From: Isoetes taiwanensis
Taxonomy: Eukaryota > Streptophyta > Lycopodiopsida > Isoetales > Isoetaceae
Direction of reading: 5' to 3'
DNA length: 64,000 bases
Assembly: GCA_021234155.1 (NCBI GenBank)
Contig: JAJEKV010000060.1
Location: forward strand, 1,178,001 to 1,242,000
How positions within the stretch are numbered: position 1 is the stretch's first letter; each line of letters starts with the position of its first letter. A program made the position numbers and the translations under genes. Shown in pieces: positions 13,485-32,170 of this stretch. The notes below the pieces were generated by a model. That model was not told the origin of the DNA, did no database searches, and saw only the letters and a program-made list of their open reading frames with translations.

Positions 13485-14808
13485 ATGGACGTCACTCCTT
13501 TATGTATCGCTGCTGCTGCAGATGCGGGAAATCCTGATCTTCGACCACATAAAAGACCTCGTACAACAAAAAGTTAGTGAGCTTTCTTTAGTAATTCTAT
13601 TATAATATGTGTTAGATCTTAGCAAATTGTTTCTTTTGCCAGGCTCGCAAAAATCCGAGTATGTCATCAAGAGTAAAAGCCCATTATTCCAAGTTGAAAT
13701 TAATGGTATTGAGATGATGGAAATCCAAACTCATGCAAGATGGTATGTAGAAATCAGTAAATCAGCAAAGAATGTGGATCTCGGATTCTTCTACAAGGAA
13801 CCTAGCATGGAAAAATTTAAGAAGTATGGGGTGGTCGCTTTTCGTGAGTTTTTAGCCAATGATGATAGCATTATCTTGAGTGTCGAAAACTGTAGGTTAA
13901 GGAAAGCAGTGCAGACAAAACCATTGTTTGTTGAAGATTATAGTTTTGATTCAATGGATAAGAAATCTAAAGGAGATGGACTGTCATGTATATCGTTTGG
14001 TTGGAATGTTGAAGATTTGAAAGCAAAAGGATCAGCAGGCCTTTTGGCTGCAGATGAGCTCGCGCAAAAAATTTCAGGTGTCAGAGAACATTTGTTCAAT
14101 AAAGGTAATTATGCTTCCTGGATTCTAAAGAATGCAAAATTCAACTGTTTAGTTGGATCTTCAGAAGAAATGTTTAAAGGAAGTGATGTGAGTATAAAGA
14201 CAAGGACTGACATGGATGCAGAGGTCATAGTAGAGAACACGTATGATGGCATTGGTGAAGGCATTGGGAAAGAAGGGGAAGGGAAATCACATGCTTATAA
14301 GTTCAGCCCCGAGGAGCAAGCAAAAGTGGTACAAGAAAGTACAAAGCGCATGGAGTGTTTTCAAAAGTATTATCCATTGGGTTTACAACATGCTGTCAAT
14401 ATTCATGTCAATAGATTAGTTTTATGCACTGGGAAGGCAGTGTTATACAATCATAGAGTTTACAATGAGGAGCATATGAGAAATATTTATAATAGTATGT
14501 TGAGGTTACCGTGCAGGAATCCTTCTCCAGCAGATGTTCTACCATTCGATGCTAGAACAGGAGAGCCTTTAAAATGGAGTAGAGTGCAAGATTTGAATTG
14601 TTCACATGTCAAGTTCTATGTAATTGAGGGGCAACATTCAGTTCGAGCAGCTCAAGAAATTTTGCTAATAATACTTTACCTTCGTGAGCTTTCAAGACTC
14701 TATAAAAGTCGAATGTGTAGAATCTTGCATGGTCACACCCCCGACATTCAATTGTCAATGATAAGTCATGCACGTAATAGCATAAACGAAGCTTTTCAAG
14801 TATGAAAG
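13485..14808 (+). CDS. ParB/sulfiredoxin-fold-like domain protein, copy 1 (exons 1-2)
   Basis: Exon 1 (13485-13572) begins MDVTPLCIAAAADAG and carries a basic HKRPR stretch like a nuclear localisation signal. A 70-bp intron (GT at 13573, AG at 13642) leads to exon 2 (13643-14808). Residues 1-290 are a region I do not recognise. The C-terminal part reads AVNIHVNRLVL, YNEEHMRNIYNSML, then VKFYVIEGQHSVRAAQEI. This matches the ParB N-domain plan: an 'I-x-V' strand, an 'e-x-l-x-S' helix, and the box 'y-x-I-x-G-x-R/H-x-x-A-A'. In bacteria that fold binds CTP or acts as nuclease or DNA binder. A second copy aligns at 28567-29157, including HYPLGL, IYxxxxYDPAH and VIIGGRHS. Comparison with it implies one extra base near 14801; without that base, exon 2 runs into exon 3 instead of the TGA at 14803. 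Fold assignment is by motif, so activity is inference. Confidence 0.6.
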
Positions 14809-15637
14809 GTATGTTGTATTCTCATGCTTCTTTTTATATTGTACCAATTATTAATGATCTAATTATAACTTGCGGACATGTGTCCGAAATTAACTTAGTC
14901 AAATACACATATTAGTCTATTAATTTCTTATTTCAATTATTTTATTTCAAACCGATAAAAAAGCAATTTGCTTACTTAGAAGTCATGTTTAATAGTCACC
15001 TTCGCAGGACATCCGTCCGAAATTGCCAATATTCTTTTTTCTCTAAAGGTCGCATGTTTGTAAGTGAGGCTCTACATAATTTTAGACATGTTTGAAATTA
15101 TTAATTAGTTCAATATGGTCACCTTTTGGACATCTGTCTGAAAGTGACAAAATTCTTTCCTTTGAAGGCTATATGTATTTTTAGACGAGTTGTTTGAAAG
15201 ACAAGCTTTATATAATTTCAGACATGTGTATCCTTGAGGTTTACGTCATATTTGCAAACAAACGGCTTAAGTAGGATTCCTTTAAAGGGCATGTGTAATT
15301 TCAGACGAATGTCTGTAAGTCAAGCTCTAATGATAGTCTTTGAGACATGTGTAACTACTAGTTTATTTTTTTTATGAGATATAAACTGTTTGTAAAACAT
15401 TTGTAAATGAGATATTTAAAGGCCATGTACTTTCAGACAAGTGTCTGTAAGTGAATCCCTAATGAGAGTCTTTCAGACGTGTGTCTGAAAGCATGTCCAG
15501 ACTAATTTAATAGCTTTGAGATACATATTGTAATTGCATACAGATGTCTGTACTGAGATTCTTTCATTTGTTAGTACTTTGATGTATTTACAGACTAGTG
15601 TCCGTAAGTAGCTGATTCTTTACCTTTAAAATTGCAG
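14809..15637 (+). repeat. Intron 2 of copy 1, built from degenerate tandem units with palindromic modules
   Basis: Bounded by AAAG|GTATGT and ATTGCAG|T. It contains about eleven modules of the form TTTCAGACnnnTGTCTGTAAG or TGTCTGAAAG: near 14870, 15002, 15081, 15124, 15180, 15217, 15300, 15345, 15431, 15470, 15540 and 15588. The best is CTTTCAGAC-GTGT-GTCTGAAAG (about 15470-15491), with 9-bp perfect arms. Larger units repeat too: GTCACCTT near 14997 and 15119, and GTAAGTnAAnCnCTAATGAnAG near 15315 and 15447. The array is thus an old, diverged tandem repeat. Confidence 0.7.
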
Positions 15638-16297
15638 TCCTTATACTGACCAAGTTTCCCATGCGCGAGCTCAATGGATAGCGTTAGGCAGGCCACCAAG
15701 GCCTGTGACATGCAGCTCCAAGGACACAGTTTGGCAGGTATGCTTACATTTAGAATCAAAGGTTTGTAGGGTGCCTTAGCTTTTTTCTAGAATTGACTTA
15801 ATTTGTTTCTATGTGTCTAGAGATTTGAAGACTTCTGCAAATATACGATTATAGAGAAGCCCAATAAGTCGGATATGTCTTCAAAAGCAGCTCCAAGAAT
15901 GACAGAGCACTATGACCTAATAATGTGTTCTGACGAAGAATGGAGTAATTGGAAACTAATATGGGAAGCTTGGAAGAACTCGAAACTTCTTGACAAAAAT
16001 GGAAAACCTCCTACAAGTCCAGCTCCTGATATTTTTGTGAGTACTTATATGCGTCCATTTCAGGGGCTTATGCGAGAGGAGATGCTAGAAGTTCAGTCAA
16101 AAATTCTAAGTGGTGAAGTGCTACTTCGAAAGGGGACAAGTAAGTCTTCTAAAAAGATCGTAAATAAAGCAATTCTAAATGTGAAGGATGTAAAGGAATA
16201 TGCAAAACAGCTAAAGCAAGCAAGGGCTATGCAAGATGGCATTGTCAAATTTTGCAATGCATGTATCGGGTTCCACAGAGGGATTATGAATTTTTAA
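15638..16297 (+). CDS. Copy 1 module, exons 3-4 (linker between ParB-like and methyltransferase-like parts)
   Basis: Exon 3 (15638-15737) encodes PYTDQVSHARAQWIALGRPP and onward to VWQ. A GT-AG intron (15738-15820) joins exon 4 (15821-16297), which starts RFEDFCKYTI and includes a Trp-rich stretch (EEWSNWKLIWEAWKNS) and a Lys-rich helix ending near GFHRGIMNF. Copy 2 has the same intron boundary followed by PYVEQAAHTPNQRWVEYG, so the exon structure predates the duplication. After 16297 the frame is lost: a +1 frame continues briefly (CDITDGDMEKLKVWSS) before stops near 16366. I recognise no domain in this section; it is probably a helical linker. The frame break may be a one-base error or true decay. 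Confidence 0.5.
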
Positions 16298-16383
16298 ATC
16301 AAGATGTGACATTACCGATGGGGATATGGAGAAGCTCAAAGTATGGAGCTCGCAGAAGACTTAGATAATCGCGAACAAAGAGA

Positions 16384-17434
16384 AATGTTAAGACCATAGA
16401 CCTTCCAGATAGGGTAAAAGAGTTTTTGAAGGAACGTCTAGGTTTTCCGGTTGTTAAGTTTGATCCAATAACAAGTGAGAGCAGCTATTTAATCAGTATT
16501 GGTAGTAAGGGCTATTGTGGAGAAACTTCAACAAAGGCTCCAATTAGCCTATTTGTTTTGAACTTAATGGAGGAAAACATGGATCATTTTGATAATCATG
16601 ATCTCGAGCAGTTTTGGAGAACTTGCGGGCATATGACAACACTAGAAAAATATATCGTTGTTATATTTGTTAGAATGGGTATACAATGCAAATGTGATTC
16701 AAAGTGCTGAGAGCATTGTTGGTGAAAAGAAAGTGGTTTACGGCATCTATGAACATTCTGAACAGTCTGGAGAAAAAGTATCTGTCAGTAATCCTTTCAG
16801 CATTGTAGTCACAGTAATGATTAGCAAGGGCCAGATACCTGCTATTACTTGTTGGCCTCACGACAACAACTTCCAACAACTGCTTATGAAGGTTCATGAT
16901 AACTCATTAAATTTGAGAGATGTACCCTTTATGGAAGAGTATCCTACTTTAGATTATGTGTGCCTTGGCGAGGGTGTTGTGCTGAAGAGGCATATTAGAC
17001 CTAGAGTTGTCAAGTATTTAATTAGTTCATTTTGTACCGATGAGAATTCTATGGTCCGGTGGAGTGGTACATGCATGGAACATTTGGGCAAGGGGCGTTA
17101 TGTCTTGGAAAGAAGGTAGTGTCTATTGTCAAATCCACTCACATGGAAGAATTTTGCCATAAGTATTTTGATTCTGTAGTATACTTTGCCAAGACAACAA
17201 AAAGCAAAGTATCAGAGGTCTCAGCGGATGATGAGGACGAAGAAAATCCTTCTAACAATAGTTCTGAGCATATTGCAGCTGCACAGAATGATGACAAGAA
17301 TGAGGACATACTTAGCAATACAAATCAAAATGGAGTTACTATCGAAGTTTTAGGAGCAACGGGCCTTGAAGAACCTATGGAGCATGCACTTGAGAGGTTG
17401 CCTTCTTCACCTCTTGCACTTCCAGACGAGTGTC
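16384..17434 (+). pseudogene. DNA-methyltransferase-like domain of copy 1, two frame shifts
   Basis: Three overlapping frames make one continuous protein: 16384-16680, about 16665-17110 and 17060-17434. The first has LKERLGFPVVKFDP and an acidic helix FDNHDLEQFW. The last two join as RPRVVKYLISSFCTDENSMV, WSGTCMEHLG, then GALCLGKKVVSIVKS and EEFCHKYFDSV. A 'P-x-x-x-x-x-x-L-I' helix followed by 'S-x-x-V-x-x-x-x-S-G-T' and 'A-L-x-x-G-(K/R)-x-x-x-x-I' is the AdoMet-binding C-terminal region of N4/N6-type DNA methyltransferases. A clear catalytic (D/N/S)PP(Y/W) motif is not seen; KFDPI near the start is only a weak candidate. A Ser/Asp/Glu-rich tail leads to the donor at 17434. Two one-base shifts interrupt it. 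Copy 2 has the matching region at 30836-31037. Confidence 0.45.
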
Positions 17435-17440
17435 TGTAAT
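17421..17440 (+). promoter_or_regulatory. Palindromic module overlapping an inferred splice donor
   Basis: TCCAGACGAGTGTCTGTAAT occurs at the end of the methyltransferase-like exon. If GTAATC (17435) is the donor and the CAG at 17524-17526 the acceptor, the frame is kept into the phosphatase exon (CT|A codon). The right half of the palindrome therefore supplies a usable 5' splice site, as it would in many other modules. Confidence 0.5.
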
Positions 17441-17526
17441 CTCTAAAATATGTCTTTAAATTTATGGAAAACCATTTAAGCTCTTCCATTCTCTTAATGC
17501 GCCCTTCATGTTTTAAATTTTGTCAG

Positions 17527-18328
17527 ATGTGATGATTTACATATTAACGATACGGGGAGCCAGACGAGTCAGGTAATGGAAGGACGTGAAACGCCAGCAG
17601 TTGACATTCATGTTGTGGTCTCAGATGTAGAAGGTGTCTTTTCCAGTCAACCTGAAGTGGATGAGCAATTAACATCATCATTGAACAAAAAGTGGCCAAG
17701 GAAGTTACTTATTCTAGATATTAATGGTGTTCTTGCATCTTTAGTATCTAAGAAAAGGGCTTCCACCATCAAAACATCACAAAAGCCTATTGTATCTGAA
17801 ACGAAGCACATTTATCCTAGGCCACGTATAGAAGAGTTTATTGCTTTTTGTCTTGAAAGATTTGATGTGGCAGTTTGGTCTTCATTAACATATAAGAGGG
17901 TTGTAAGTACACTTAAAGATATCGGGCTGAAGAAATATGTTCACAACTTTTCATTCACTTGGTCACAATCTGATTGTATGTGTCTCAAAGACGTACCAAT
18001 TGATGTGTCTGAAGGGAAGCTAGTTTTTCTCAAAAAATTGGAAACTGTATACCAACAATTCGGAGGGAAGTACCATGAGGGCAACACCATCTTGGTAGAT
18101 GGCTGTCCTTATAAATGCTATATGAACACAAGCAACAACATATTTGTCAAGTTCTACCGCCCAGAAGAACATGAGATAGATGACTATCTTTTCACTGACA
18201 TCGTTCCTTTGCTTATGGAGCTTGAGAAATGTGATCAAGTTGCTCCTATCATTGACATGTATCCTAAATTCAAACAAGTAGACCATATAAATGCAAATGT
18301 TATGAAGGCTTTAGACATGTTATTCTAA
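17527..18328 (+). CDS. FCP1/NLI-interacting-factor-like HAD phosphatase, copy 1
   Basis: The frame is open from an acceptor at 17526, so it can be the last exon of the module; the first internal ATG is at 17576. After an acidic lead, the HAD core reads KLLILDINGVL (motif I), then PRPRIEEFIAFC, VAVWSSLTYKRV (motif II), and NTILVDGCPYKCYMN (motif III). The distances fit the roughly 170-residue catalytic domain of plant SCP/FCP1-like phosphatases, which remove phosphate from proteins such as RNA polymerase II C-terminal repeats. Two metal or acid-base positions differ from the classic DLDxT and DD(S/N) motifs: here they are D-I-N and D-G. Plant-specific relatives also vary here, so weak or no activity is possible. 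There is no frame break across 250 codons. Copy 2 has the same domain at about 31690-32130. Confidence 0.75.
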
Positions 18329-20003
18329 CCAAGAAATACAAGCAACTTTTGTAATGTCAGCACTTATTGAAGAGAAAGTTAATGTACTTTGCACGATACA
18401 CTTGTTTAAGCTTTCTATGTGTCAGCATTTGTGCTAACTATGAAATACAAGCAAGTTTTCTAGTGTGATCCTTTGTTGAAAAAATAAAGAAATGTACTTT
18501 GGGCGACATACTTATTCAAATGTTCTATTGAAATGAAAGCTATTATGTGTTTTACTTATTCAAATTATATGTGTAAATGGAAGCTATTTTGTGTTATTTT
18601 TCAGCGATCTTTTGATCTTGTTTTAATTTTTATAATATAAAAACTTTAATGTTTGTTTAAAATTTGTTGATATGTCTAGAACGTCTGTCTGTAACCTTAA
18701 AAGTGGGAATTGCATGAGTTCCATTTTAATGAAATGGAGCTTATAATTACTTTCGTTGTGCTCTAAGTTGTTGCTCTTATATACTTTATGTCTCGTTGGA
18801 TACTTACGCACATTAGTTTTTTTACACGTTGATTTGCATGCACATTCACATATTTCTATGGGTTTCTTCGCCTTGATCAATATATCCAGTTTATTTTGGA
18901 CCCAATTTCTTATATGCATGTCATAACATCAATTTTTGCGCTGGATTTATGCTGGGTTTTACATTCGGTGGGCATTTAATTGCAGTTTACCTTATCATCA
19001 TATATCATTTTGGGTTTGATCCCTGGTTTTGGATATGAGGTATATTTGTTGATTATGATCTTGGCAGAAGGTTTGGGTCAAGTTGGACTTACAGGGTTGG
19101 GCGTTCTCGCTTCAGAATTCTCAAATCATCAAGGTCAATCGGGGGGTTCTCCTCTTGTTTCCATGATTCCATCACGTCATTCCATCAACTATAGTACATT
19201 ATGTATCTTATTTTGTTATCTTCTCCTTAGTCCAGGCTCTTGCCATAGGGACTGTAGTTTTTGACTTGTTTGATTCGGACGTGGGGCATACATCATTTGT
19301 CGCGTTTTTATACAAGTTGAGTCCCCGGTGAGGTATCCATTCTAGGTTTGCTTCTTTCAACGCCTATATCGACTTCCTTTAGGCTATTCTTTTGCTATCC
19401 ATATTTCTTGGCATTAATTCGTTTGAGTGTAGTTACGGATTAATAATTGGAATGTTTTTTCATGAGATGCATTTTTGCATGTGTATTTTATTTTGAAACA
19501 TACAGGGGTGAGTATGGTTAATGACTTGCATTCATGTTATATGGATGCTTTTAATTCTTGTCATATGTACAATTTGGATATGGAAACAAACTTCTACGTT
19601 CTCATATTACTGTTGAGCGCTTTTTGAGCTTGCCATTTGGTGGGAGTTTTTGCGTCTCGACATCTAGCGGCCCTCAATTTATAGTGTTTGGGGCTTAGTA
19701 CCTCTATCTTTATCTTTCAGTTTTATATGGTTTTGTGCATAGTATGATTCACGATATAGTTTTCCTATATGGTTTATCTTTTCTACATTTTTTACTAGTG
19801 CGGGAGTTGGAGTGACGAACTTGCCTTTGCTTCTATGTGACGACTATGTGATTTACAATTCGTTGATTTTCTTGAGTTCCTGATGGTGGTGCTTTCCTAG
19901 GTTTGCTAATTTCCTTTGTGCTCGATTTTCGAGCTCCATTCGCATTGTTAATCTCTCTTTGACACTTCTTGGGGCATCGTCATGCCATGTATTGTTGGGT
20001 AAG
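18329..20003. other. Intergenic 3' of copy 1
   Basis: A last module-like half (AACGTCTGTCTGTAAC, about 18679-18694) marks the right edge of the palindrome zone. At 18355-18560 a stretch of about 75 bp is loosely repeated (tgtactttg, cgatacactt or cgacatactt, ctatg or cattg). The remainder is T-rich with no supported gene. The frame at 18980-19264 shows no domain. Confidence 0.4.
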
Positions 20004-20264
20004 AGCATGTTAGGGCCTACATGTTTTGGAAACTACCTGGAAAATACTCTGGGTAGTCAAAGATGATGATATATTTGAGTTCTTAACATCTTCTTGACAT
20101 CATAAAGTACCTTACAACATGTATGTACTAGTACTCTTGAACATAACACAATTTCTTTTAGTCAATCTTGTAGTCTAGGTACTTTAAAATACAATTATGT
20201 ACTTGCAGAGAAGTACACAGAAAAGTACCTTTTTGGTAATTTTTTATGTAGGCCCTAACATGCT
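20004..20264. mobile_element. MITE, 261 bp with 19-bp terminal inverted repeats
   Basis: AGCATGTTAGGGCCTACAT at the left is exactly inverted at the right (ATGTAGGCCCTAACATGCT, 20246-20264). The interior is noncoding and rich in AAGTACnT motifs. No direct target duplication is obvious outside the repeats, so the superfamily is unresolved. The exact arm match suggests it is fairly young or selected. Confidence 0.7.
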
Positions 20265-20810
20265 TTCACCGTGTTGGAGATACCTTCTCTAATCTTGTTG
20301 CTAGTTTGTAGTAGTTTTGCCATCCTTGGGACTATATGATTTGTGACATGGGCGTCTTCATCAGTTGCAAGTTCTGCACATCCTCAGGACATCACATCTG
20401 TCATCTACCTTGGGTCAGTTTTTCCTAAAGACATGGTGATCTGCCATATGGTGGGACTTGTGAACTTAACCATCATTCAATTAAATTGGGTTTATGTCTT
20501 AATTTTGGGACAAATTTCATATTGCATGTTTTTAGTAGCATATTCAAATTCACACATTTCACCTCAAAATTATGAAAACGTAATATCATGTTATTTACAA
20601 AATAGTCAATATTTCACAATATAGCACCATATCATAAAAACGTGATAACAAAAATTTACATAGTTATTCAACTTTCTTCAAGCACCCCCAATGATATCAT
20701 AGCCTTCTTTCGACATCACGAGGTATTGTAATTCTCGTGATTTCTAGCTGGAATAGTGTTTGGAGTCCATGAGTACAAAACACTTTCATAGTCTAGCCAA
20801 AGATCGAGGA
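20265..20810. other. Intergenic
   Basis: Short T-rich and A-rich stretches; the frame at 20343-20624 has no recognisable domain. It is the 3' flank of the transposase remnant. Confidence 0.35.
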
Positions 20811-23140
20811 TCACTCTGGATTTCTCCTCCATTTCTTTGTCCAACACCGAAAGTACCTTTCTTTATCCGATACGTTGGTCAACTGATGCCTAATCGACAC
20901 CACCATTCCACCCCACATGGTTGAAGTTAATATTACCTTCTTCTTTGCAAATATCGAGATAGTGAACCCCAACCACACGGATATGTATCTAAATCTGCTG
21001 GCTTTACTACCACAAATTGGTGGCATTCCAAGTCGATTGGAAGGTTCATAAGCATCCATGCCTAGAAACTTTGGCCTATTGTTCTTAGGACCAACATAGT
21101 GTTTGTCGAAGGAGGAGGAGCATATTGCTTGCGAATGCTACTTACAAGTGTCATCAAAATCCTCGGAGACCGCTAAGGTCTTCCACCTAGTTTTAGGCAA
21201 CCACCCTTCTTTCAATTCATCCGAGGATGTGTCTATCTCCCCAACAATGGGTTAATCACCTTCTTCCGGTAAGCCACCAAGGCACGGTTGGTGTCATCCG
21301 GATTGGTTTGCCAATGCTTTATATAGTCTTGGATTCCTTCCTTAGTCAATCCCAATTGCTTCACTTCTTGATGAGGTTTTAAAGCTTTTGGTTGACCTAG
21401 AGGTATCATAGGCTTGCCATTCTCATCTCTACGCCATATTTCCTCCCCTCCTCTCCACTCATCCTCCGAAGGTCTCATCTTCCATTGGAAGATTGGAATC
21501 CCATCTCTCACCCAAAAAAAGTGAACTGCAGAGGCCTGGAATGACCTTCAAGATCCAATGTATAACCATCCACAAAGCTCTTCCAATCGGGCACTTCTTC
21601 TATGAGAGAAGCTATAGGGTTTGGAGTAGTGCATTCATGCAAGATTTCCATTAGCCTAGGAAAGTTGGTTGTTTCTTTGCCCCGCTTCAAGATACAACTA
21701 TATTTGCCAAATAATGCATCCACATCCTCATGGGTATGCCCGGCATAAGAAACCCTAAATTAACTCTTTCAAATATCCCCACAAACTTGTTAAGTAGGAT
21801 AGGAAAGAAAACATCCACTGTTCTTATTTTGGCCAAAGACAATTATCAAGTTGCAAGAGAAACCTTTTGGGTAGATCTTGAGGTTTAGCACGTGAAGTTG
21901 AAGCTCCAACATGTTCATTAGACCCATGCTTCCTAAACCTTGCCTTCTTTGAACTTTTCAATATTGTTAGGGTTTCCATCTAACAATGCTCTATGTAGTG
22001 CCTGGCTAGTCAGTAAGGTCCCGGAGGTGACCATTGTATCCATTTTCATAGTTTCTCAAACACCTCATGATACTCCCAATATGAAAATCGGACCATCACT
22101 CCACAACTCCAAACTAAAATGGCCATAGTAGGTTTGATTACGCCCATGCAAGATTGCCCCATCATTGAGATCTGTAAAGGGTATGATCTTCCACATGACT
22201 TTGGTATGTACTTGAATTGTGGAAGACAAGTCTTTTGCTGGTCCATCTTGTCATGTATAATACATAAATAGTTATTGGGTTCCAATGCAGATAAAGTCCT
22301 CCACATCCAATAACATGATCTACATGATAGTTGGTCGGTCATATGGTCCTTCATATGCTCCCTTATCCTAGCCCTTTGACTAGGTTGCACAGTCTTATCA
22401 AGAGTCTCCTTCAACTTAGCACATAAATTGCACTTTGCAAAGTTGTTTGAAGTTGCTATGGTGACATGATTGAAATGCTTCTTCCATAACCTACTAAAGC
22501 TAGGGTTGGGATATTGGAAGAATTCCCAATTCTCAAGTAGGGAATTCACTTCTTCCAAAATACTCTTTTTGAGTACAATGTGATGGCAACCTTTTCTCAA
22601 CAACCGCTCTTCCCTTTTCATCCCTTCCGCTTTTGTGTGGCATAGACTGCATTGAAATCAATATATTTTTCAAATATCTCACGGCGGCTGGGGTCCTAGC
22701 CGTTGGTCTCAACAAACCATTATTTCCATGTAAAGCAATCCTGTTCCCCTCGCACTTTTTTTTTTTGCCAATTATGCCATGAAGAAGTTGGAATTGCATG
22801 GATACTCTGCCATGCTTTTGCACATATCCATTTGCCTAGCAAAGGGTATTTTTTTGTTTGGGTTTCTTTCATCTTGAAGTGCATGCTCAAGATTGTGTAC
22901 ATGTAGGTCCTCCTCTCATCAACGGTGTAACTCTTGAAAAAGTGGCTCTTGCTTCCACCAATTGTTCTATTGTGAAGAATTGCATACAATCACTCCAACA
23001 ACAACTCGAGCCCCTAACCTTCACCATTGTCTCACGTTTGGTGTCACTAATCAACTTGGCTCTTTTGCTAGGATAATGTCCGGCAAGCGATACTTCTCCC
23101 CTTTTGCCTAGGTTTAGAGTTCCAACCGCCAATGGATCAA
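20811..23140 (-). pseudogene. Decayed DDE-type transposase of the GHTHEDVD family
   Basis: Minus-strand pieces in different frames follow the order known from a widespread eukaryotic transposase family (DUF7869-like in plants and invertebrates). First comes GKWICAKAWQSIHAIP (about 22850), then SMPHKSGRDEKGR and LPSHCTQKEYF (about 22620). Next are FAKCNLCAKLKETLDK and YLCIIHDKMDQQKTCLPQ (22,470-22,220), then AGHTHEDVDALFGKYS (about 21,745-21,690), and a C-terminal helix-rich part (21511-21233). Asp in IIHDKMDQ and the GHTHEDVD block are conserved and presumably catalytic or structural. At least five frameshifts make it dead. No terminal repeats were found. It sits between the two copies of the three-domain module. 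Confidence 0.72.
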
Positions 23141-23902
23141 TATCAAGACAATCATTGTCCCCAACAACCTCGTGCTCGGAAAAATATAATCCTCCACAAA
23201 TTGAACACTACTTATAGGCCATGCCATGATGCAAGGAACCTCCAATTGCTTGACACAACCAAAACATTCCTTGTCACCCAAACCTTTACCTTTCGGTTGT
23301 CTTCCAACATCGAAATTGCAATACCAATATTGTCTTCCCCTAGCCTTTCATCATTATGACTTGACCGGGATCTGCTAGCACAATGACTCCTTGGCCTACT
23401 ATTTCCTTTGTTGCACTTGTGCATGATTCTCACCTTCTTGTTCCTCCATTGCACCCTACTATAGAGGACTAATTGTTTTTCTTCAACATTCTTGCTAGGA
23501 GTTGGTTTTTCATTGATATTGCTCTTTTCACCATCTTGAGTTGGGGGGCACCATTGACCTAGGCAAATTGCACCCTTTTTAGTCAATGAGTAAGAAAAAA
23601 TTATTACACCATAAGATAAAAAAACGTACATTTATGGAATATGTAGAGGTAAATCAAATTTTTTAAAAGCAAGAAATTCCTTGGAAATAGGTTTAATATA
23701 ATAATAACAATGGGCTTAAACGAAATCATTTAAAACAAGAATTTTCATGGCAACAACAAGGAAATGACATTTATATAAATATATCCAAATTTTAATTATC
23801 TAAAAATTTGGATATATGATTAAAAGACATATAACTAATAGACGTGAGAATTTATTATCCATAATAATATACCCTAGATAATATAGTATGGAATTTTCGC
23901 AT
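23141..23902. other. Probable 5' part of the dead transposase, then AT-rich DNA
   Basis: A 139-codon minus-strand frame (23212-23631), rich in Lys/Arg/Ser, may be its N-terminal region. A hairpin lies at 23779-23817, with 15-bp perfect arms ATATATCCAAATTTT and a 9-bp loop. Confidence 0.35.
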
Positions 23903-24000
23903 CACCGGGCGTGGTTATTTGAGGCAATTAATTATTCACGCTAAGAGCTAATTAACCCTATATAAACTGTTTCACGCCTCAAGACCATTCGTCCCAATTT
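23903..24000 (+). promoter_or_regulatory. TATA promoter cassette 1
   Basis: It starts with a palindrome half-match (CACCGGGCGTGG), then has CAATTAATTATTCACGCTAA and TATATAAA at 23959-23966, about 55 bp before the ATG at 24017. A second cassette with the same order occurs at 25009-25110. This arrangement looks like a duplicated core promoter carrying the CACGCC-type palindrome upstream. Confidence 0.5.
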
Positions 24001-24016
24001 TTTTTTTTTCTCGGCC

Positions 24017-24288
24017 ATGAAGTTGCCTCTGGGGCTTCATGAAGAACCCGAGGTCTCGTCAAAGAGACGCCGGGTTGAAGAACCCCTCTCCCCCGCCATC
24101 GATTTCCTTGTAATTCTCCGGGATTCCGATTCGGGGAGGATGATGCTGATTTTGAAGAGGAGGAATTGAGCTCCTCCGGGATTTCCTCGACTCAAGAGGA
24201 GGAAGAGGAGGAAGAGGAGGAGTTGGAGGAAGAGGAGGAGATGTCCTCCCAAGAGCATGAAACCGCCTCGGCTCTGGGGTTGGCTTGA
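24017..24288 (+). CDS. Acidic nuclear-type hypothetical protein (one-base shift)
   Basis: From ATG 24017 the frame reads MKLPLGLHEEPEVSSKRRRV, with a KRRR basic stretch, then shifts by one base in a GGGG run near 24137-24140. It continues DDADFEEEELSSSGISS and a long Glu run up to a stop at about 24288. The Glu run is encoded by GAGGAAGAG repeats. Acidic, low-complexity proteins with a basic signal are often nuclear. It may be the first exon of copy 2 or of a separate gene; I see no domain. The frame shift could be a base error. Confidence 0.35.
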
Positions 24289-25008
24289 CCACAAACAGAA
24301 TGAAATCTCTCAAGAAGAGGAGGAGGAGGGGAAGAGGAGGAGGAGGGGGGGAAGAGGATGAGGAGGAAGGTCGAGAATTGACCGATTTTTAGAATGGTCG
24401 AGAGATGAGCAGGTTTGCATGTCCTGTTTTTTTTTTTTTTCACCTTTCTTTCTTTTCTAACACCTTTCTTTCTTCTTTGTTCGGGCGTGGAAGATCAATG
24501 ATGCATCCCGGTGCATCTTGTAAAGCCTTCGGGCATTTTGTAAAGCCGGGCATTTTGTAAAGCCATTCTTGGCATCCGTACATATCAATTTTGAATGAAA
24601 TCAAATAGTTTTCTTCACAAACTTTTTTTCTTCAAAGCAGTTTTCTTCAAACAGCTTTTTTCAGACATAAAATATTTTGAATGAAATCAAACTGTTTTCT
24701 CCAAGCATTTTGTCTCCAAAGTGTTTTCTCCAAAATTTTGTCTCTGCATTGTCTCGGGAACACTATAAATCAATCACAGCAGTATAGGAAATTTTCCTAT
24801 ACGACCTAAAACAATTCCCCAACTCAACAAGTCATTTTTTAGCCTTGATAATTTTGCCTTTAAAATTATTTTTAATTTAGCCTATATAAAATTTGAAAAT
24901 TTTTTTTTTTGAATGCAATGAATGGAATAAAATTGGTGAGAATTTATTGCATGAAATGCAATATTCTCCATATATACCATATACATGTCATGTCTGGCGG
25001 GAAGACCG
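24289..25008. other. Purine-rich and A/T-rich repeats
   Basis: A GGAGGA-rich tract runs to about 24372. Then GGGCATTTTGTAAAGCC occurs twice (about 24532-24566), and ATTTTGAATGAAATCAAA twice (about 24588 and 24675) with T-rich spacers. No gene. Confidence 0.45.
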
Positions 25009-25110
25009 TACGCCAGGCGTGTTAATTCAAGCAATCAATTATTCACGCTAACTTATTTCTAATTGTGCCTATATAAATCCATTTTACGCTCTCCAAGTTC
25101 CTACATTTTC
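25009..25110 (+). promoter_or_regulatory. TATA promoter cassette 2
   Basis: ACGCCAGGCGTG palindrome, CAATCAATTATTCACGCTAA, then TATATAAA at 25070-25077. Order and spacing match cassette 1 over about 100 bp, followed again by a T/C-rich leader. A third possible TATA (CCTATATAG, 25828-25836) lies beside more palindromes. Confidence 0.5.
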
Positions 25111-25135
25111 TTCCTTCCTTCATACGATTTGCCGG

Positions 25136-25525
25136 TTGCGCTTCTGCTGTGTTTGGATCCGCCGTCCCGAAATCTTGGTGAGCAGATTTATATTCATCAA
25201 TGTTAGATGTTTGGTTTCGGCAATTCCTAACTTACTAAAAGACTCCAGCCTTTGTTCTCGTAGCATGCAGAGCAGAGGACGCCGGAGACTTCGAATTAAA
25301 ACCAAAAGCAGAGGACTAAGGTCTGCAGAATCGAAAAAGCCTCCGGAATTAAAACCACAAGCATCTATCCTCCTTCCAGCCCTCGAGAACTCAAGGTTAG
25401 TTTTTCATTTAGTTTTAAGTATCATCTCAATGGCGGGGTTTAATCCAAGAAGACAAGCTTTTGCATTTGCTTTCGAGGAGGAAGCGGAGATGATGTTTAT
25501 GAAAACCGAGAATAGTTTTTTATAA
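25136..25525 (+). CDS. Basic hypothetical ORF after promoter cassette 2
   Basis: A frame of about 129 codons begins soon after cassette 2. The part from MQSRGRRRLRIKTKSRGLR (about 25267) is strongly basic, followed by a neutral tail ending in an acidic helix (FEEEAEMMFMKTENSFL). No domain is seen. The position relative to the TATA box (about 190 bp from box to this Met) is plausible for a transcript. It might be a nuclear or nucleolar protein or a chance frame. Confidence 0.3.
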   Translation: MRFCCVWIRRPEILVSRFIFINVRCLVSAIPNLLKDSSLCSRSMQSRGRRRLRIKTKSRGLRSAESKKPPELKPQASILLPALENSRLVFHLVLSIISMAGFNPRRQAFAFAFEEEAEMMFMKTENSFL

Positions 25526-25654
25526 ACTTCATCCGCTTCTTTGTTTCAGTAAATTCTTGAGTTTCTCTTCTGAATTAATCATGCTATTGCATGCAAGTTT
25601 CTATTATGAATGTGTAGTAGAAAGCATTAGAAAAATCTGAAAGATAATATTTGA

Positions 25655-25956
25655 AACACGCTAAAGCGTGTTTTAGGGTAATCTTAGCCTTCAACATGAA
25701 TACACGCCGGGCGTGCATTCAGCGAGGAGGGAGAAAAAAAAACCGCATACGGATAGATAAGTAAATAGATAAAGGGCGGGCAATTATTTACGGCGGCTAA
25801 TGAATGCGCCCAGCGTGTATAGTTTTTCCTATATAGCGTTTTACACGGCGAGCGTGCAAACAATTGTATCCCTACTTTTCAACTTTTACGCTAAAACGGG
25901 CGTGTCTCTTAGTTTCTAAGTTTATAAATAAAAGAAATATAACACGCCAGGCGTGA
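25655..25956. repeat. Cluster of CACGCC-type palindromes, copy 2 flank
   Basis: ACACGCT-AA-AGCGTGT (about 25657-25672), CACGCCGGGCGTG (about 25703), GCGCCCAGCGTG (about 25805), CACGGCGAGCGTG (about 25843), AAACGGGCGTG (about 25894) and CACGCCAGGCGTG (about 25943) lie within 300 bp. They form a different palindrome family from copy 1's CAGAC type. Confidence 0.7.
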
Positions 25957-27438
25957 ATCTCGATACTCCGCTCACTTCCTATTGATAGATGCGGGTTACA
26001 TTAATCACCGGTTGGTGACGAAGATGGATTGGAATTACATTTGGGCCAGCAATCACACGGCCAGACTCGGGGGCGGCTCCAATCTCGGTCGGTTGAACCA
26101 TGGTAGAAAGCACCGATTCATTTTGGAGCACCGATCTTACAACCCCCTCGAGTACTTGGATCAAGTAATGATGATGGCAGCAGACCGCAGGGCAATGATA
26201 GATCTGGGCTCGGGGCCCTTGCAATCCGCGGAGGCTCGCCCTCTTATCTAATCCGCCGAAATCAAGTACATGCATTGATCGAGAGTGAATCTAGCATCCG
26301 TCATTTCGAGATTCAAAATGAGGAGCTGCGTTTCTTAGTGGTTAGCCTCTATGCCCGGATGCCCCAACACGAACCACTACCACAGGCGGTATCACGATGC
26401 AATGGAGATGGCTCAACCAATGGAACCACTACCATGGCGCTTATACGATGCATTGGAGGTTCAACCAATGGAGCGGGAGGTGGGCGGGGGAGGGGGAGGT
26501 GGAGGTGGAGCGGGGGGGGTGGTGGAGCTAGAGCACAGGTGTTTTTCTTTGGGGTTTTACGGAAGAATTCACTATGCCCTGCAATGGAAATGGGAGTATC
26601 GATAGCCCGGCCTACTCGGTGATGGGCTTGAAAGCGTGTGTAGTGCGGGATTTTTGTCATGCGGTTTATCCGGTTTATCAGATTATATACAATTGTAATC
26701 TTTTTTCCAATGAATACAACAAATTTTGTCTACTTCTATATTTCTACAATGTAATACATGTTACATACCTTTTTTAAGCGGTTTCTTGGCCATGCAACAA
26801 ATGTTCCAACACTTTCTCCAACCGTATCCCCACCGGTGAATGCTGAGGTAAAGCTTCATCCATAGGCTTGCGATTAATCAACTGTAACTTTCGGACATAC
26901 TTATCCCCCGTGAATTCCATGGCTTGATTTCTGATCCGGATCGATGGAGTCGATCTTGCATAATCCTACTTTCCTTTTTGATTTGTAGTTAACATGAAAC
27001 ATTCATCTTAATACTTCGCAGAAAATTGCTATTCGGACACCTACTATTGGAAATTAATGTTCAAGCTATTGGAATGAGATGAGTACCGAATTACGTAGCC
27101 ATTCTTGAGAAGCTGATTTGAGTCTGAAGCTGATTTGAGAATTTGAAAGGCGCTATGGAAACTCTGGCGGTCGGGGAAAATTCGAATTAGAAGAAAGATT
27201 AGGTTAACTACGTTTAGGCGGGGATAAATTTGGGTGGGTGGTTTTAAAAACTTAATGAAAGAAGTCGTGGGCCGGGTCTTCGTCATTATTATTTGTATGT
27301 GTCAAGAATATTTGAAGCGCATTTTGTGTTTTCTTGAAATTCAAATTTCTCTATTTCTCGTCTGGTAGAAAAAGCTATTTCTTGGCGGCTCGGCGTATCC
27401 GGCGATCTTCCGGACTCTGTTACTAGGCGACTCGGGAG
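25957..27438. other. Low-complexity and unclassified DNA
   Basis: A plus-strand tract around 26455-26530 is GGAGGTGG-rich and gives Gly-rich translations in several frames. The earlier part (25982-26251) has an 89-codon frame (DYxxHxL-type) without a known domain. Nothing certain is seen. Confidence 0.3.
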
Positions 27439-27574
27439 ATGTCTTCTAAAAGCGAATCGAATTTCGGGCCAGGGGGAAGAGGAGGCGGTGGAAGAGGAAT
27501 CTCTAAACCGGCTCTTCTCAAGTTTCGGAGGGCGTTGATCGAAGAATACCGAATACCACAGAACCCTATTCAAG
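27439..27574 (+). CDS. Possible 5' exon with Gly-rich start
   Basis: ATG 27439 opens MSSKSESNFGPGGRGGGGRG, then a helix ending RIPQNPIQ at a donor CAAG|GTATTT (27575). A coding-like exon resumes about 450 bp downstream (28047 on), so this may be exon 1 of copy 2. There is no sequence likeness to exon 1 of copy 1, and the link is not certain. Confidence 0.35.
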
Positions 27575-28046
27575 GTATTTAATTTGCCACAGAATACACA
27601 CTGCTTGTGTGGAGAGTATTATGCTTGCATGAATTTGAGATATTTCCTTTCACTTAATATGCTTTGCATGAGTTTGAGTTATTATGCTTTGCATGAATTT
27701 TAAGTATTAACATCGATTAATGCTCGATTGTCCGATTAGTAGAACATAATTTTGCTCTGTTTTATATATAGAATATAGCGGTGTTAGGCAGGTTGGAGAT
27801 AGCAATGTTCAATGAGGTTAAATAGTGTGAAATATGGATTCATGAAGGGTATGTAGCTTAAAATGTGGATGCAAAATAATTTAGTTTCAAATTAGCATAG
27901 CATGGTCAATAATGGAGATACCAAACCATGGCGTGATTTGTACTAATTTAGGTTTTAAATGCATGGCGTGATCTCTTGTTACGAAAAGTACTCTAAAAGT
28001 GCTCATCTTCATTTGCGATTGCTCAAGAGGAAGAAAACCCTACTAA

Positions 28047-28566
28047 TTGGGTTCTAATCCACGCCAAGAAAGCAAAGGCGCAGGCGACCCAGATGCGGTA
28101 CCATATGATCTCACCTTAGATGATGAAGGGGCGATTCTTATAGCAACCACTGACCTGCCTGCCCGAAGAGGAAATGGGCGAGGGTGCCGAGGGTACATTG
28201 ACCTTGCCAAGACAAATGGCAAGCTCGACTTAACTCTCTTCTCGAGGAAAAGGAAGCGGAACAAGATGGCCAAACAAAGGGATCCTAATCTCTTGTGAGG
28301 AAGAGGATGACACCCAGCGCAAATTGCTCTTGGAGATTACGAAGCCGAGAAGAAAGATCTGCTCGGACTTACTCCTTTAGAGAAACTCGCATACAAGGAT
28401 ACGTTCATGAAGCAGATGTGAGCGGTGAGACATGTTTTAAGTATGGTTGGCCAACCAATGTAGCGATTCGCCAATATCTATTTGCCAAGGGTTACGGTAT
28501 GCGTAGAGGCATGTTCACTAAACCGACACCAAGTCACTATTTGCGCAAGCTAGGGAATTAGCCGAC
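28047..28566 (+). pseudogene. Copy 2 module, N-terminal region (broken)
   Basis: Coding-like text in shifting frames: PDAVPYDLTLDDEGAILIAT, GYIDLAKTNGKLDLTLF, a basic SRKRKRNKMAKQ stretch like a nuclear signal, then ALGDYEAEKKDLLGLTPLEK. It precedes the ParB-like part, as the unknown N-terminal region does in copy 1, though the two share little obvious sequence. At least three frameshifts or stops are present. No domain is recognised. Confidence 0.4.
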
Positions 28567-29157
28567 TTGAAAGCTTCTAAAAAGGGTCCTAGATCTAGGG
28601 AAGAATGTTCAACTGCGGTTGTCGAAGGCATGGCTTCGTTTTTTGAGAATGAAACGGGGCCAGTGGCGTTGACTAGAGGCCATGAACAAAATTTGAATAA
28701 GCACGCCGACCATTATCCATTGGGTCTTAAGGAAACTTTTGCGATCCATGTGAAGTCCCTCATCCGTTCACCAAGCTCCATTTATGTTAGCGGGGAGATA
28801 TGATCCGGCACATGCCATGGAGATTGTTGAGCATGATTAGTAATCCAGGTCAAATGCCTATGCCGGCCGGATGTGCTACCTTGGGATATGATCTCGAACA
28901 AGCTTCTTTGTGTGGGCCGAGCGTCCGAGAGCTATTATCAAGTGATGATATTAAATATGTCATCATCGGCGGGCGGCATTCGTTGAGGCACAAAAGGCCA
29001 TCATCGGCGAGAGGCGAGACAAAACAGGCCAAAAAGTGTTCTACAATCACTATGCATTATAGGAGGTGTCGTATCTTGGATGCCAATACTTCACTGCAGA
29101 TTTGGCTGAGATTAGTGCAACTTTGAATGAAATGGGGAAGACATTTCTATACAAAAG
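28567..29157 (+). pseudogene. ParB-like domain, copy 2 (broken)
   Basis: Pieces align with copy 1 in order: HYPLGLKETFAIHVKSL, IYVSGEIYDPAHAMEIVEH, SSDDIKYVIIGGRHS with VEAQKAI in the next frame, CRIL, then ISATLNEMGKTFLYK at the donor AAAG|GTAATC (29158). The ParB box (VIIGGRHS-xx-AQ) is preserved, but at least four single-base shifts and two stops (about 28824) break it. The shared exon end with copy 1 supports common origin by DNA duplication rather than reverse transcription. Confidence 0.6.
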
Positions 29158-29466
29158 GTAATCAACTTTGGTTTCATAAATTGTATTCACGCCCGGGCGT
29201 GCTTTTCAAATCAAACCAATTCCGCCCGGTGTTTTGAAATCAATCAATTCACGCCGCCGGTGTTTTCAAGTCAACCAATTGATTTGAAAACAGCGGCGTG
29301 AATTCCGATGATGCTGGCTGGCGGAATTGGTTTGTTTTGCGCTTGGCATAATTGCATTAGTAACTTTATTCATTTCGCGCCGCGTGATTTTTCTCTTCAT
29401 CAATTCTATTCAAATCGCGGCGTGTTTCTATTCTATGATCTTGATTCAATGTACGTACTATTGCAG
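29158..29466 (+). repeat. Intron of copy 2 with CACGCC palindromes (same position as copy 1 intron 2)
   Basis: Bounded by GTAATC and TTGCAG|T. It contains CACGCCCGGGCGTG (29188-29201, a perfect palindrome), CCGCCCGGTG (about 29222), CACGCCGCCGGTG (about 29250), its inverted partner CAGCGGCGTG (29291-29300), CGCGCCGCGTG (about 29376) and CGCGGCGTG (about 29415). A unit of about 35 bp, AACCAATTC...GGTGTTTT, repeats three times. The 29246-29306 stretch can fold back on itself. Confidence 0.65.
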
Positions 29467-30680
29467 TCCATACGTTGAACAAGCTGCGCATACGCCCAAT
29501 CAGCGATGGGTGGAATATGGCTGCCCATTGCCCACCGAGGCGGGTCAAAGTCGAGCATTCAAGCTCTTTGGAAGCGGGACTGTCCGTGAACAATTATCTG
29601 AGGAGAAGAAAGGCGCAAGAAAATCAAAAGAAAAAAGGTGGTGATGACATTGCAGATCATACGAAAAGCTCATCGGCAGGTCGGGACCAATGGACTTCGT
29701 ATAAGATTGTGTTTTGTAAGGAGGCGGTATGGCTCAAGTGGAATGAATGCAGGGGCGGCTTATGCACAAGGGAAGCTGCCGGATACTATGGGTAGGGTGC
29801 CTCTGTTGATGTAAGCATCTTTGACTTGAATGTGAGAGATGAGAAAGACTTCGAAGGGGGCTAGGCATTTGAGACCATTTGGGTTTTAGACCCGGTGCTT
29901 AAAGAAGGAAGTCTTATACAAGAAGGGTGCTTTCACCAAGGATAGGATGTCCTTAGTTGAGTCTGCTGCATCATGTAAAGGATGCATTACAATGAAGTCA
30001 TTTGTAGGGCTGAGTTACAAAGGCTATCGGGGGGGATGTGGCATTATCACGAAATTGGATTCTTTGGACAAATACAAGGTCGATAATGATGACATCAAGT
30101 TTGTATTACGGTCAAAGGACTTCCTAAAGAATTGGAAGGCTAAAAATACAAAACATAAGGAGACTCTACCCCTAAAAGGTCTTGGTGAGTTGAGAAGAAA
30201 AGTGGCCCTTGTGAAGAAGATTCTTGGAGAAGGCGACAGCATCCGGTATTGGTCTCCATTGGGTACAAAGGTCTCTTGCCCGATTCAACCGGCCTTAAAA
30301 ATATATCACTCTTTGTGTTGGCCGGCGAGGGTGGGAGAGGAGATATGGGCATGAACCGGAAAGGACTACGGTAGCTTCTTTACCCATTTGTATAGGATTG
30401 ACAAGCGAGAGGTCCTTCACTATTGTCATCGTTTGTCCTTGGTGAGTCACATCTGCATGCACTATCTGGCTGCTCATGATGGAGTGCCTCAAAGTTATTA
30501 GGGAGGGATGCCTAATATATGATGTTAAGGATAATGAGCTGCTTGAGCGAGCGGAAGATGGCACATGTGATCTTTATTATGATATCCATCTTTGTCGGGC
30601 GAGGAATATGATATTGCTAAGGCCAAAGGGTGACAATAGCGGTGCATGGGAATGTTTTCTTCTAGATGATCGGACTTAAG
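29467..30680 (+). pseudogene. Copy 2 module, linker exons (broken)
   Basis: It begins PYVEQAAHTPNQRWVEYG at the acceptor, matching PYTDQVSHARAQWIALG of copy 1. Downstream frames include a Trp-containing stretch (FCKEAVWLKWNECRGG), then 29947-30354 (a 135-codon frame with a Lys-rich helix and LGELRRKVALVKKI), and 30476-30679 (DNELLERAEDGTCDLYYD). Several shifts and stops separate them. Position and order match the linker and early methyltransferase-like part of copy 1, but direct similarity is weak after the first exon. No catalytic methyltransferase motif is seen. Confidence 0.4.
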
Positions 30681-30835
30681 AACTATATTCTTTCATACGG
30701 ATCGGGGATGGGTCGGAAACGAGGATGAGTCGAGGAAAGAGGATGAGGATGGGGACCCCCCTCTAAGTGGGGAAATCAAGTCTGAGCTACAAACTAAGGA
30801 GAAGGGCCCTTAAATAAAAATGGATTTCCCGATCT

Positions 30836-31037
30836 ATGGCTGCTTACCTCGTCGAGGCATTTGCTCCAATTGATACAACCTGCTTGGAGCTTCATGTTGG
30901 AGGGTTATATTGCAGAGAGGCTCTTATGGGTGCAAGAAGATGTCTTTGCTTTGTGAGTGATGGCGGGCCAAAGACTTTCTTGAACCATTCCTCATGCATG
31001 TGCTTGCCAAGTCTCCTAAAGGCCCTTATGGCAACCT
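30836..31037 (+). pseudogene. Methyltransferase-like C-terminal region, copy 2
   Basis: One 67-codon frame reads MAAYLVEAFAPIDTTCLELH, then GGLYCREALMGARRCLCFVS and FLN. This fits the AdoMet-site pattern 'L-V-x-x-F-x-(4)-x-C-L-E-x-H-x-G-G-x-x-x-x-A-L-x-x-x-R-x-x-x-x-x' and aligns with WSGTCMEHLG and GALCLGKKVVSIV of copy 1. It supports the same domain order in both copies. Neighbouring sequence has stops, so the copy is dead. 31040-31490 holds only scraps, with a GGCGGAGGGGGGAG run near 31422. Confidence 0.42.
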
Positions 31038-31489
31038 GAAATCATCAGCAATCAAAAGTCTAGTAGACTTGTCCAATTCGAAAGTGGGCGTTGCTCTGGA
31101 GAGGAACTAGTGTCTACTTGACTGATAAGGAAGCGATAATGAACAAATAGCTGCTAAACTGGGTTGCTCAAAGAAATCTTGTGATGGCGGCGAACAGGGA
31201 ATATCCTTGCCCACATTGCGGGTGATACAAGCAACAATAAGTAGATTCACGGGTTAACAATGAAATAATTGGAGGGGAAACCGAAAATGAAGGCAACGGG
31301 CTCTAGTGATTCCGCAGGTTTGCCAAATCAATAGTAAAATAATGTCGGTTTGTGAAGGGCCTTGTGGAACTAATAGAAAATAACAATTCTAACGATCGAG
31401 GAAAAAGGCGAAGATTAAGGGTGGCGGAGGGGGGAGAATAGCGCCGATGGCAAATGGCGAAGATGATAGGTATGGCCTTGCCCGCGAAA

Positions 31490-31630
31490 TAGCGCCCACA
31501 GCGTGATTTAATTTTGTATTACCTTTGAATTAAATCGGCGCCAAAGCGTGCTGATTATTTTTAGTTGTCAAACTAAATCGCGTAGGCCTTGCGATTTGGT
31601 TATGACTATTTCAAATCACGCTTGGCGTTT
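31490..31630. repeat. CACGCC-family palindromes between methyltransferase- and phosphatase-like parts of copy 2
   Basis: GCGCCC-ACA-GCGTG (about 31491), GGCGCC-AAA-GCGTG (about 31537), AATCGCG-TAGGCCTTG-CGATT (about 31575) and ATCACGCTTGGCG (about 31615) all lie in about 140 bp. In copy 1 the same position (17421-17440) holds a CAGAC-type module. Confidence 0.55.
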
Positions 31631-31689
31631 GTATTGTTTGTGTTATCGTATCTTGGCGGACCGGATACATGTTTGATGTTTCGGCTTCC

Positions 31690-32170
31690 ATTGCGTTTCT
31701 AAGAAGGTTGTGGTGTTAAACCTAAGCGGAGTCCTTTGCAAGACTTTTAGAAAAATAAAGTGGCTAGAAACGGTTTCATCGGACACCGGTAGAATCAAAC
31801 ACCAAGTGGATCTATCCGTGACGCCACTTGAAGGAGATGCTAGGCGAGGCATTGGGTTATTTCGAGTTGGTATTTGGTCATCCATGGAACTAGGAACATC
31901 AAGGATACTTTGGAGGCGGGGGAAATCGTAGAAATTGGTTGACCCTTTGGGATCCGAGAACAAATGTGTGAAGTTCACTAATCCCAAGGATCCAACGAGG
32001 CAAGCCTATCTTCATCAAACACTTTGAGTAACATGATGGGCGAACTTGGTATCGAGAATAAGGATGATATAATCATAGTGGATGATGATGCTCTCAAATG
32101 CTTCTACAATCAAACACACGGGCCACGAATCCACCATCTTACGATCCAAAAACTTTGGGACGGATGATTT
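31690..32170 (+). pseudogene. FCP1/NLI-like phosphatase domain, copy 2 (broken)
   Basis: KKVVVLNLSGVLCKTF is motif I with the nucleophile Asp replaced by Asn. VGIWSSM is motif II (about 31869-31889). GIENKDDIIIVDDDALKCFYN (about 32050-32110, an extra-short variant) is motif III with both Asp residues present. The middle is shortened and shifted by several single-base changes. The region thus follows copy 1 in order and spacing, but motif I has lost its nucleophile while motif III is more classical than in copy 1. Confidence 0.58.

Follow-up and report, generated by a model that had tools for sequence, protein, structure and literature searches.

A 64,000-nucleotide stretch of the Isoetes taiwanensis genome (contig JAJEKV010000060.1; hereafter the window) carries two insertions, elements A and B, of a DNA transposon family with two divergent genes between its terminal inverted repeats (TIRs). 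One gene encodes a DUF7869 protein, probably the transposase. The other, here called the accessory gene, joins a weakly ParB-like exon, a degenerate methyltransferase-like exon and a NIF/FCP1-type HAD (phosphatase-like) exon, and four of the subfamilies examined carry 5 to 22 copies per element of a 22-bp palindrome of their own type. We lean towards a reading in which the accessory gene would encode a DNA-binding regulator that targets its own element, in the manner of the VANC anti-silencing proteins. Coordinates are positions within the window, which lies in an assembly of 1.66 Gb in 1110 contigs; labels in C denote contigs of the assembly, and labels in L element sequences or pieces taken from it.

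Termini, dispersal and the DUF7869 gene

Element A (11311-18742, plus strand, 7.4 kb) is closed by a 22-bp inverted repeat with a chance expectation of 0.00, located by inverted-repeat search as AAGCTCAATTTCATTAAAATGG at the left end (11311-11332, plus) and AAGCTCCATTTCATTAAAATGG on the minus strand at the right end (18721-18742). It is flanked by an intact 4-bp target-site duplication (TSD), ATAA, at 11307-11310 and 18743-18746 (end-pair reading). In alignment, A and its nearest relatives share the abrupt right end at 18742, and the last 143 bases of A used as a query found 27 places, 26 of which match through the final base. Element B (20468-32653, plus strand, 12.2 kb) is a decayed copy of another subfamily, with TIRs reading AACCATCAT(T/C)CAATTAAATTGGG (about 32 bp at 94% identity) and, by the same end-pair reading, the TSD ACTT at 20464-20467 and 32654-32657; its border was placed a base inward of the first inverted-repeat match, a choice without which the 4-bp repeat does not arise. 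Exact 4-bp TSDs were present in 13 of the 14 end pairs read, in 12 different sequences (CCAT twice). These pairs represent 10 fetched copies, the two window copies and the copies on C1044 and C1034, with C135 and C1100, which gave partial end matches, left out; the lone exception is C1056, where the left-end query matched only from base 9. The family thus has the inverted repeats at both ends and the fixed-length (4 bp) TSD of class II TIR transposons.

A preliminary description, made from the letters of the window alone, had reported two loci of the same part order, and both exist, A being recovered by family hidden Markov models (HMMs) and B by matches to its exon 2 together with collinear, individually weak pieces of exon 4 and HAD. 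It had called them a duplicated module; a local duplication of one locus is excluded by the TIRs, the TSDs, the different flanks and the lack of DNA similarity between A and B, which are two insertions, each from a different subfamily of the same transposon. The limits given there were also too narrow, both elements extending beyond them and B holding a DUF7869 gene that had been missed. The suggestion of a mobile gene, on the other hand, agrees with the TIRs, the TSDs and the dispersed copies. Among the matches listed, at least 141 places correspond to the HAD exon of A (140 scored of 5208 first-look candidates) and at least 107 to its exon 2 (104 scored of 3857); these accessory-gene places, more than 100 in number, are scattered over many contigs, and many contain stops.

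The full-length relative on C1044 has its left TIR 3.7 kb farther out than in A, with a second gene between, whereas in A the left TIR is joined straight onto internal sequence, indicating that A is an internal-deletion derivative. Its DUF7869 gene is gone and its accessory gene is frame-shifted in exons 2 and 4. A and the C1034 copy are 97.7% identical across 7459 aligned bases, so that transposition of the copy A family looks recent. Left ends of this family with no right end among the matches listed were seen at C963:1023332, C1075:3514351, C908:20970591, C1051:6157705, C919:665174 and C1038:9839319, possible derivatives having another right half. By eye, a short inverted repeat adjoins the right TIR in the window (18703-18742), in L014 (about 7180-7221) and at the right end of L017, and its arms covary between subfamilies (GTGGGA/TCCCAC, AAAATGGGA/TCCCATTTT). 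This hairpin-like repeat prompted us to consider a Helitron, against which the TIRs and TSDs argue.

The second gene of full-length relatives encodes a DUF7869 protein (PF25273, E 1e-44) and is divergent to the accessory gene. DUF7869 looks very abundant in this genome, with 9910 first-look candidates and all 150 scored passing the cut-off, and none was found in 14 control genomes. Among the matches listed, 30 of the 73 places nearest the element's DUF7869 protein have an exon-2 or HAD match within 25 kb, in divergent orientation in 28; second pieces of listed places were left out of this neighbour analysis (4 of 141 HAD, 9 of 107 exon-2 and 9 of 82 DUF7869 rows). One of the two non-divergent cases is the C1034 copy, whose gene region is inverted within the element: compared with C1044, the DUF7869 region is reversed (L021 966-3169 versus L022 971-3065) and both flanks are collinear. 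An alignment of seven copies keeps HDKMDQ, LQLDN and GHTHDDID in that order, a pattern resembling the D, D, D triad of transposases with an RNase H fold; in one row the second D is replaced by N. The best match of DUF7869 to the Protein Data Bank (PDB) by sequence had an E value of 0.33, and identity between subfamilies is 51-56%. We consider the DUF7869 protein the probable DDD transposase moving the element. DUF7869 may exist in thousands of copies in this genome, and this apparent extreme abundance suggests that many of its elements may be without a ParB-like gene. A literature search covering only part of the literature found no published work on DUF7869 by name.

Both genes survive in B, though in decayed form. 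Its DUF7869 gene, the predicted transposase (21296-23466, minus), was recovered as 10 collinear HMM pieces (best independent E value, iE, 1.1e-50; PF25273 E 1.8e-14). On the plus strand follow a ParB-like exon (28651-29093) in two pieces of the exon-2 family HMM, 28663-28761 (iE 7.5e-4) and 28809-29093 (iE 2.2e-7), with iE 3e-4 and 3.9e-7 in a second HMM search, a methylase-like exon (29661-30961) in four collinear weak pieces (iE 0.054-2) and a HAD exon with LNLSGVL (31698-32113) in two collinear weak pieces (iE 0.22 and 0.087). By comparison, the best matches outside A and B were no better than iE 0.38 for exon 4 and 1.1 for HAD. In a tblastn search of B with the family exons at E 1, exon 2 gave a best value of 1.7e-5 and the exon 4 and HAD pieces were at chance level only.

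Structure of the accessory gene

In copy A, the accessory gene runs on the plus strand. Exon 2 (13651-14808) was placed by HMM with an approximate 5' border and, by eye, a donor GT at 14809; the family HMM matches 13615-14799 with iE 2.6e-188, and a ParB-like segment lies at about 14340-14750 by profile matches. Exon 3 (15638-15737, PYTDQ...VWQ) has AG/GT borders by eye, and the 14808/15638 junction has, also by eye, GT/AG borders. The beta-class methyltransferase-like exon 4 (15821-17437; HMM and hhalign) was matched by the HMM as four frame-shifted pieces over 15821-17397, its 3' border being uncertain by several bases, and exon 5, the NIF/FCP1-type HAD exon with LDINGVL, occupies 17527-18328 (PF03031; family HMM 17534-18325). 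That these parts belong together, as had been proposed, is borne out by their arrangement across the genome: among the matches listed, exon-2/HAD pairs within 12 kb occur at 37 of 98 exon-2 places, and in 36 of the 37 exon 2 precedes the HAD match on a shared strand. In L018, exons 3 and 4 stand in one open frame without an intron, and in L030 (1172-2200, minus) exon 4 and the HAD exon form one open frame through the former intron, with a donor site unlike that of L018. These open frames support reading the accessory parts as one predicted spliced gene.

Ratios of non-synonymous to synonymous substitution (dN/dS, NG86) were 0.09-0.44 in 15 of 17 chosen exon pairs, four of the 15 having dS above 0.8 and the other two pairs being saturated. 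The comparisons covered exon 2, exon 4, the HAD exon (exon 5) and DUF7869, and low values were common to all four. Selection therefore appears to keep the accessory protein on the element.

The likeness of exon 2 to ParB is weak, and we call it ParB-like rather than a family member. Six of eight exon-2 rows matched phrog_1033, a ParB-like partition protein, with a sub-threshold best E value of 0.0041, as did four of five crops (best 0.0014; in one crop the match ranked behind a family of unknown function), and NCBIfam DGQHR was reached in one of three crops (E 0.061). By hhalign, exon 2 aligned with ParB proteins at the correct boxes with scores of 20.3-20.7, compared with 17.0 or less in 99 of 100 shuffles and 132.8 in one outlier. 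The best PDB match of exon 2 by sequence had an E value of 1.6, and a single-sequence AlphaFold model of the window's ParB-like segment (pLDDT 36.6) was too poor for use.

The methylase likeness of exon 4, also put forward in the preliminary description, holds by profile-profile comparison, and the domain appears degenerate. A seven-row exon-4 profile scored 45.7 (probability 76.4%) against 22 beta-class methylases, retained from 29 candidate sequences after short or redundant ones were dropped, while the highest score among seven other or reversed profiles was 24.8 and none of 200 column shuffles exceeded 24.6. Enlarging the profile to 13 rows gave 51.0-51.9 (probability 84-87%), and 99 of 100 shuffles stayed at or below 21.8, the remaining one being an artefact of 131.9 across 5 columns. 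The alignment follows the beta-class motif order IV, X, I (PF01555 type). At motif IV, where the reference is (D/N/S)PP(Y/F/W), the rows read SPPF in L018 and L019, SSPF in L025, SSY in L013, RDF in L016 and QFF in L126; the place of motif X reads RPRVxKYxI, and that of motif I CEWYMHGTFGQGA...LGKK. The motif I pattern DPF.GSGT with an acidic end to the next strand is absent, CEWYMHGTFGQGA...SIV or close variants standing in its place with DPF and the acidic residue lost. The string SGTCMEHLG of copy A, taken earlier for an S-adenosylmethionine site, lies in the wrong frame past a frameshift, where the family reads CEWYMHGTFGQGA. Exon 4 gave no Pfam match below E 0.04 and no PDB match up to E 10.

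The HAD exon matches PF03031 well above the Pfam cut-off (E 1.9e-13; 50.8 bits against 21.8), upholding the phosphatase likeness noted earlier, and its closest solved relative is UBLCP1 (3shq; E 1.4e-6). Phosphatases of the NIF/FCP1-SCP type carry the catalytic signature DxDx(T/V), and it is here that the element protein differs from them. Variants read DINGVL, DISGVL, DCNGIL, NANGVL (L019) and SLNGVL (L126), that is, DxN, DxS, NxN or SxN in the seven alignment rows and L126, the second aspartate being gone in every row seen and the nucleophile lost in two. The HAD part may be a pseudophosphatase. Single-sequence AlphaFold of this exon (pLDDT 36.1) was too poor for use.

Palindrome arrays

Blind counts of 22-bp palindromes exceeded all 30 shuffles each (shuffle means 0.4-1.8) in seven of 12 element stretches, namely L016 (16), L017 (17), L018 (19), L019 (20), L129 (9), L014 (11) and copy A (6); in the 30 kb of remaining window the count was within the shuffle range. 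Five types were recognized: TTTGCGGGCACGTGCCCGCAAA in the C995 copy, TTCTCGACTCGCGAGTCGAGAA in L017-L019 and L129, CTTACAGACAYRTGTCTGTAAG in copy A and L012-L015, TTTACGGACATATGTCCGTAAA in L025 and L028, and ATCACGGACTTAAGTCCGTGAA, in two copies only, in L029. Allowing up to 4 mismatches, sites of an element's own type number 5 in A, 7 in L012, 8 in L013, 9 in L014, 11 in L015, 12 in L016, 17 in L017, 19 in L018, 22 in L019, 6 in L025, 7 in L028, 9 in L129 and 2 in L029. Among 22 sequences each type repeats solely in its own subfamily, except that in L025 and L028 the types of A and of L025 cross-match; a single match of the L025 type was seen in L016. None of the five types occurred in the DUF7869-side pieces L020-L024 or in an Escherichia coli stretch. 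Half-sites change symmetrically between types, as expected of a dimer-binding site.

With coding limits and element spans set from HMM matches, the 73 sites of six copies fall in the region before exon 2, within introns or past the 3' end of the gene; not one is entirely coding, and two straddle an exon end. A few intron-4 sites, in L016, L018 and L019, fall in a stop-free frame ahead of the HAD exon. In copy A, four copies of CTTACAGACAYRTGTCTGTAAG with up to 4 mismatches occupy intron 2 (15298-15608; starts 15298, 15430, 15470 and 15587) and a fifth lies at the end of exon 4 (17419-17440), with no further copy in the window; copy B showed only scattered CACGC..GCGTG palindromes. Genome-wide, exact matches to TTCTCGACTCGCGAGTCGAGAA number 3678, against none for the reversed control. 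The C995-type sequence TTTGCGGGCANNTGCCCGCAAA has 13 sites in 1.66 Gb, again with none for the reversed control, and 12 of these lie between DUF7869 and HAD matches, nine in the C995 copy and three in the C976 copy, which we take to be of the same subfamily; the thirteenth is about 19 kb from the C995 copy.

Rfam and tRNA scans of the window gave no match, and by eye the frames at 43860-44944 on the minus strand resemble a plant serine/threonine protein kinase.

Possible function and rival explanations

The reading we favour, with moderate confidence, is as follows. The DUF7869 protein would move the element as a DDD transposase. The accessory protein, in the form of a symmetric dimer, would use its ParB-like part to bind the palindromes, the degenerate methylase domain could help to read the DNA, and the many sites per element would give specificity for the protein's own subfamily. 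The NIF/FCP1-type domain, without its second catalytic aspartate, might then act as a docking module or a weakly active phosphatase on the transcription machinery, and bound elements would thereby be kept transcribed or un-silenced. A more elaborate form, which we hold only tentatively, is a ParB-parS-like system inside a eukaryotic DNA transposon, in which the ParB-methylase-HAD protein would recognise its own 22-bp palindromes and spread or dock, the CTD-phosphatase-like (C-terminal-domain) part would keep the subfamily un-silenced and transcribed, and protein and palindrome would change together in private lineages. Arabidopsis proteins with a transposon-related domain are reportedly treated in one study of silencing.

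According to the portions available of two articles, VANC proteins of the Arabidopsis VANDAL transposons bind short motifs in their own family and undo silencing (PMC5735166, PMC10398659), and the VANC21 motifs sit in introns and upstream regions (PMC5735166). As far as those portions go, both systems have a transposon-encoded accessory protein and dense family-specific motifs in introns and upstream, and in both the motif and the protein vary between families; here, such arrays in non-coding parts were found in four of the subfamilies examined. The VANC21 motif is the 9-base YAGTATTAY in one orientation, whereas the present sites are 22-bp palindromes, and the same portions do not describe VANC as a ParB, methylase or HAD protein (PMC5735166, PMC10398659). 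The nearest structural precedent found is Sola2 with an accessory Fanzor1, which, in the part of the report available, likewise has TIRs, 4-bp TSDs and an accessory gene beside the transposase (PMC3627910). Fanzor1 is unlike the accessory protein here, and a 4-bp TSD alone is insufficient for assignment to Sola. KolobokP, as described in the available part of its report, is also a DNA transposon combining a DDD/E transposase with an accessory enzyme, but that enzyme is a His-Me finger nuclease and the element has long terminal direct repeats (PMC9587614). No element joining a transposon to a phosphatase, or to ParB, methylase or parS palindromes, was found, judging by titles and the opening of abstracts, in the part of the literature searched.

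Several results weigh against the favoured regulator reading. The blind palindrome counts of L025, L028, L029, L126 and copy B fell inside the range of their shuffles, L123, L124 and L126 carry none of the five types, and the palindromes could instead serve the transposase, yet the pieces L020-L024 held none. The ParB likeness claimed in the preliminary description is weak, with sub-threshold PHROG and DGQHR matches; Pfam ParB (PF02195) was silent on exon 2, one of the five crops had no ParB match, one exon-2 row matched a replication-initiation PHROG slightly better (E 0.0027), and the ParB target gave 21.9 and 22.4 with reversed exon-4 profiles, more than with exon 2 itself. Prokaryotic ParB-DNA methyltransferase fusions (seven aligned) resemble the element protein in placing a ParB-type box ahead of a beta-class methylase. 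The four displayed keep DPPY, three with a full-length motif I, whereas the element protein is degenerate, is encoded by a predicted spliced gene and carries a eukaryotic HAD domain as well. With these fusions as the target, exon 2 scored 16.8-17.4, less than its shuffles (23.3), and exon 4 scored 16.6 and 15.9 (shuffles up to 22.6), so that descent from a ParB-methylase fusion is not supported.

TNPA of En/Spm is an example of a transposition co-factor, and the accessory protein might similarly bind the palindromes for end pairing or excision control, with no part in anti-silencing. The divergent two-gene layout and the palindromes in the right-hand subterminal part of L017-L019 would fit such a co-factor, which we regard as a minor possibility given that most of the listed sites are internal, in the upstream region and the introns, that L020-L024 have none, and that it is hard to see what a HAD phosphatase domain would do in end synapsis. 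It seems unlikely, in turn, that the palindromes serve the DUF7869 transposase or a host factor and have no link with the accessory gene. The weak ParB homology would fit this, but the sites are subfamily-specific and concentrated ahead of the accessory gene and within its introns, DUF7869 shows good conservation across subfamilies, and a host factor is not expected to track subfamilies.

ParB with methylase is a prokaryotic arrangement, and inspection by eye classed seven of 11 regions from 40 bacterial genomes as ParB-methylase fusions, which might suggest an integrated virus or, as the preliminary description considered possible, a captured phage module; the chromatin role also raised there would be speculative. 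An integrated virus or a recent capture is nevertheless very improbable, since pattern scans of IMG/VR, made for exon 2 and DUF7869 but not for exon 4, turned up no relative of either, the best phage match of the ParB-like segment had an E value of 7, and the TIR/TSD structure is typical of a DNA transposon. An ordinary non-mobile host multigene family would account for spliced, protein-coding copies with low dN/dS, but is refuted by the TIRs, the sharp common ends and the exact TSDs at different sites, and sits poorly with dispersed places of which many contain stops.

These elements give DUF7869 a context and suggest a role for it as a transposase. They also present a predicted ParB-like and methylase-like architecture that appears to be under selection within a plant transposon and is joined to a CTD-phosphatase-type domain. 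If the regulator reading is true, the family would be a possible second case, after VANC, of transposons countering silencing through sequence-specific regulators that they themselves encode.

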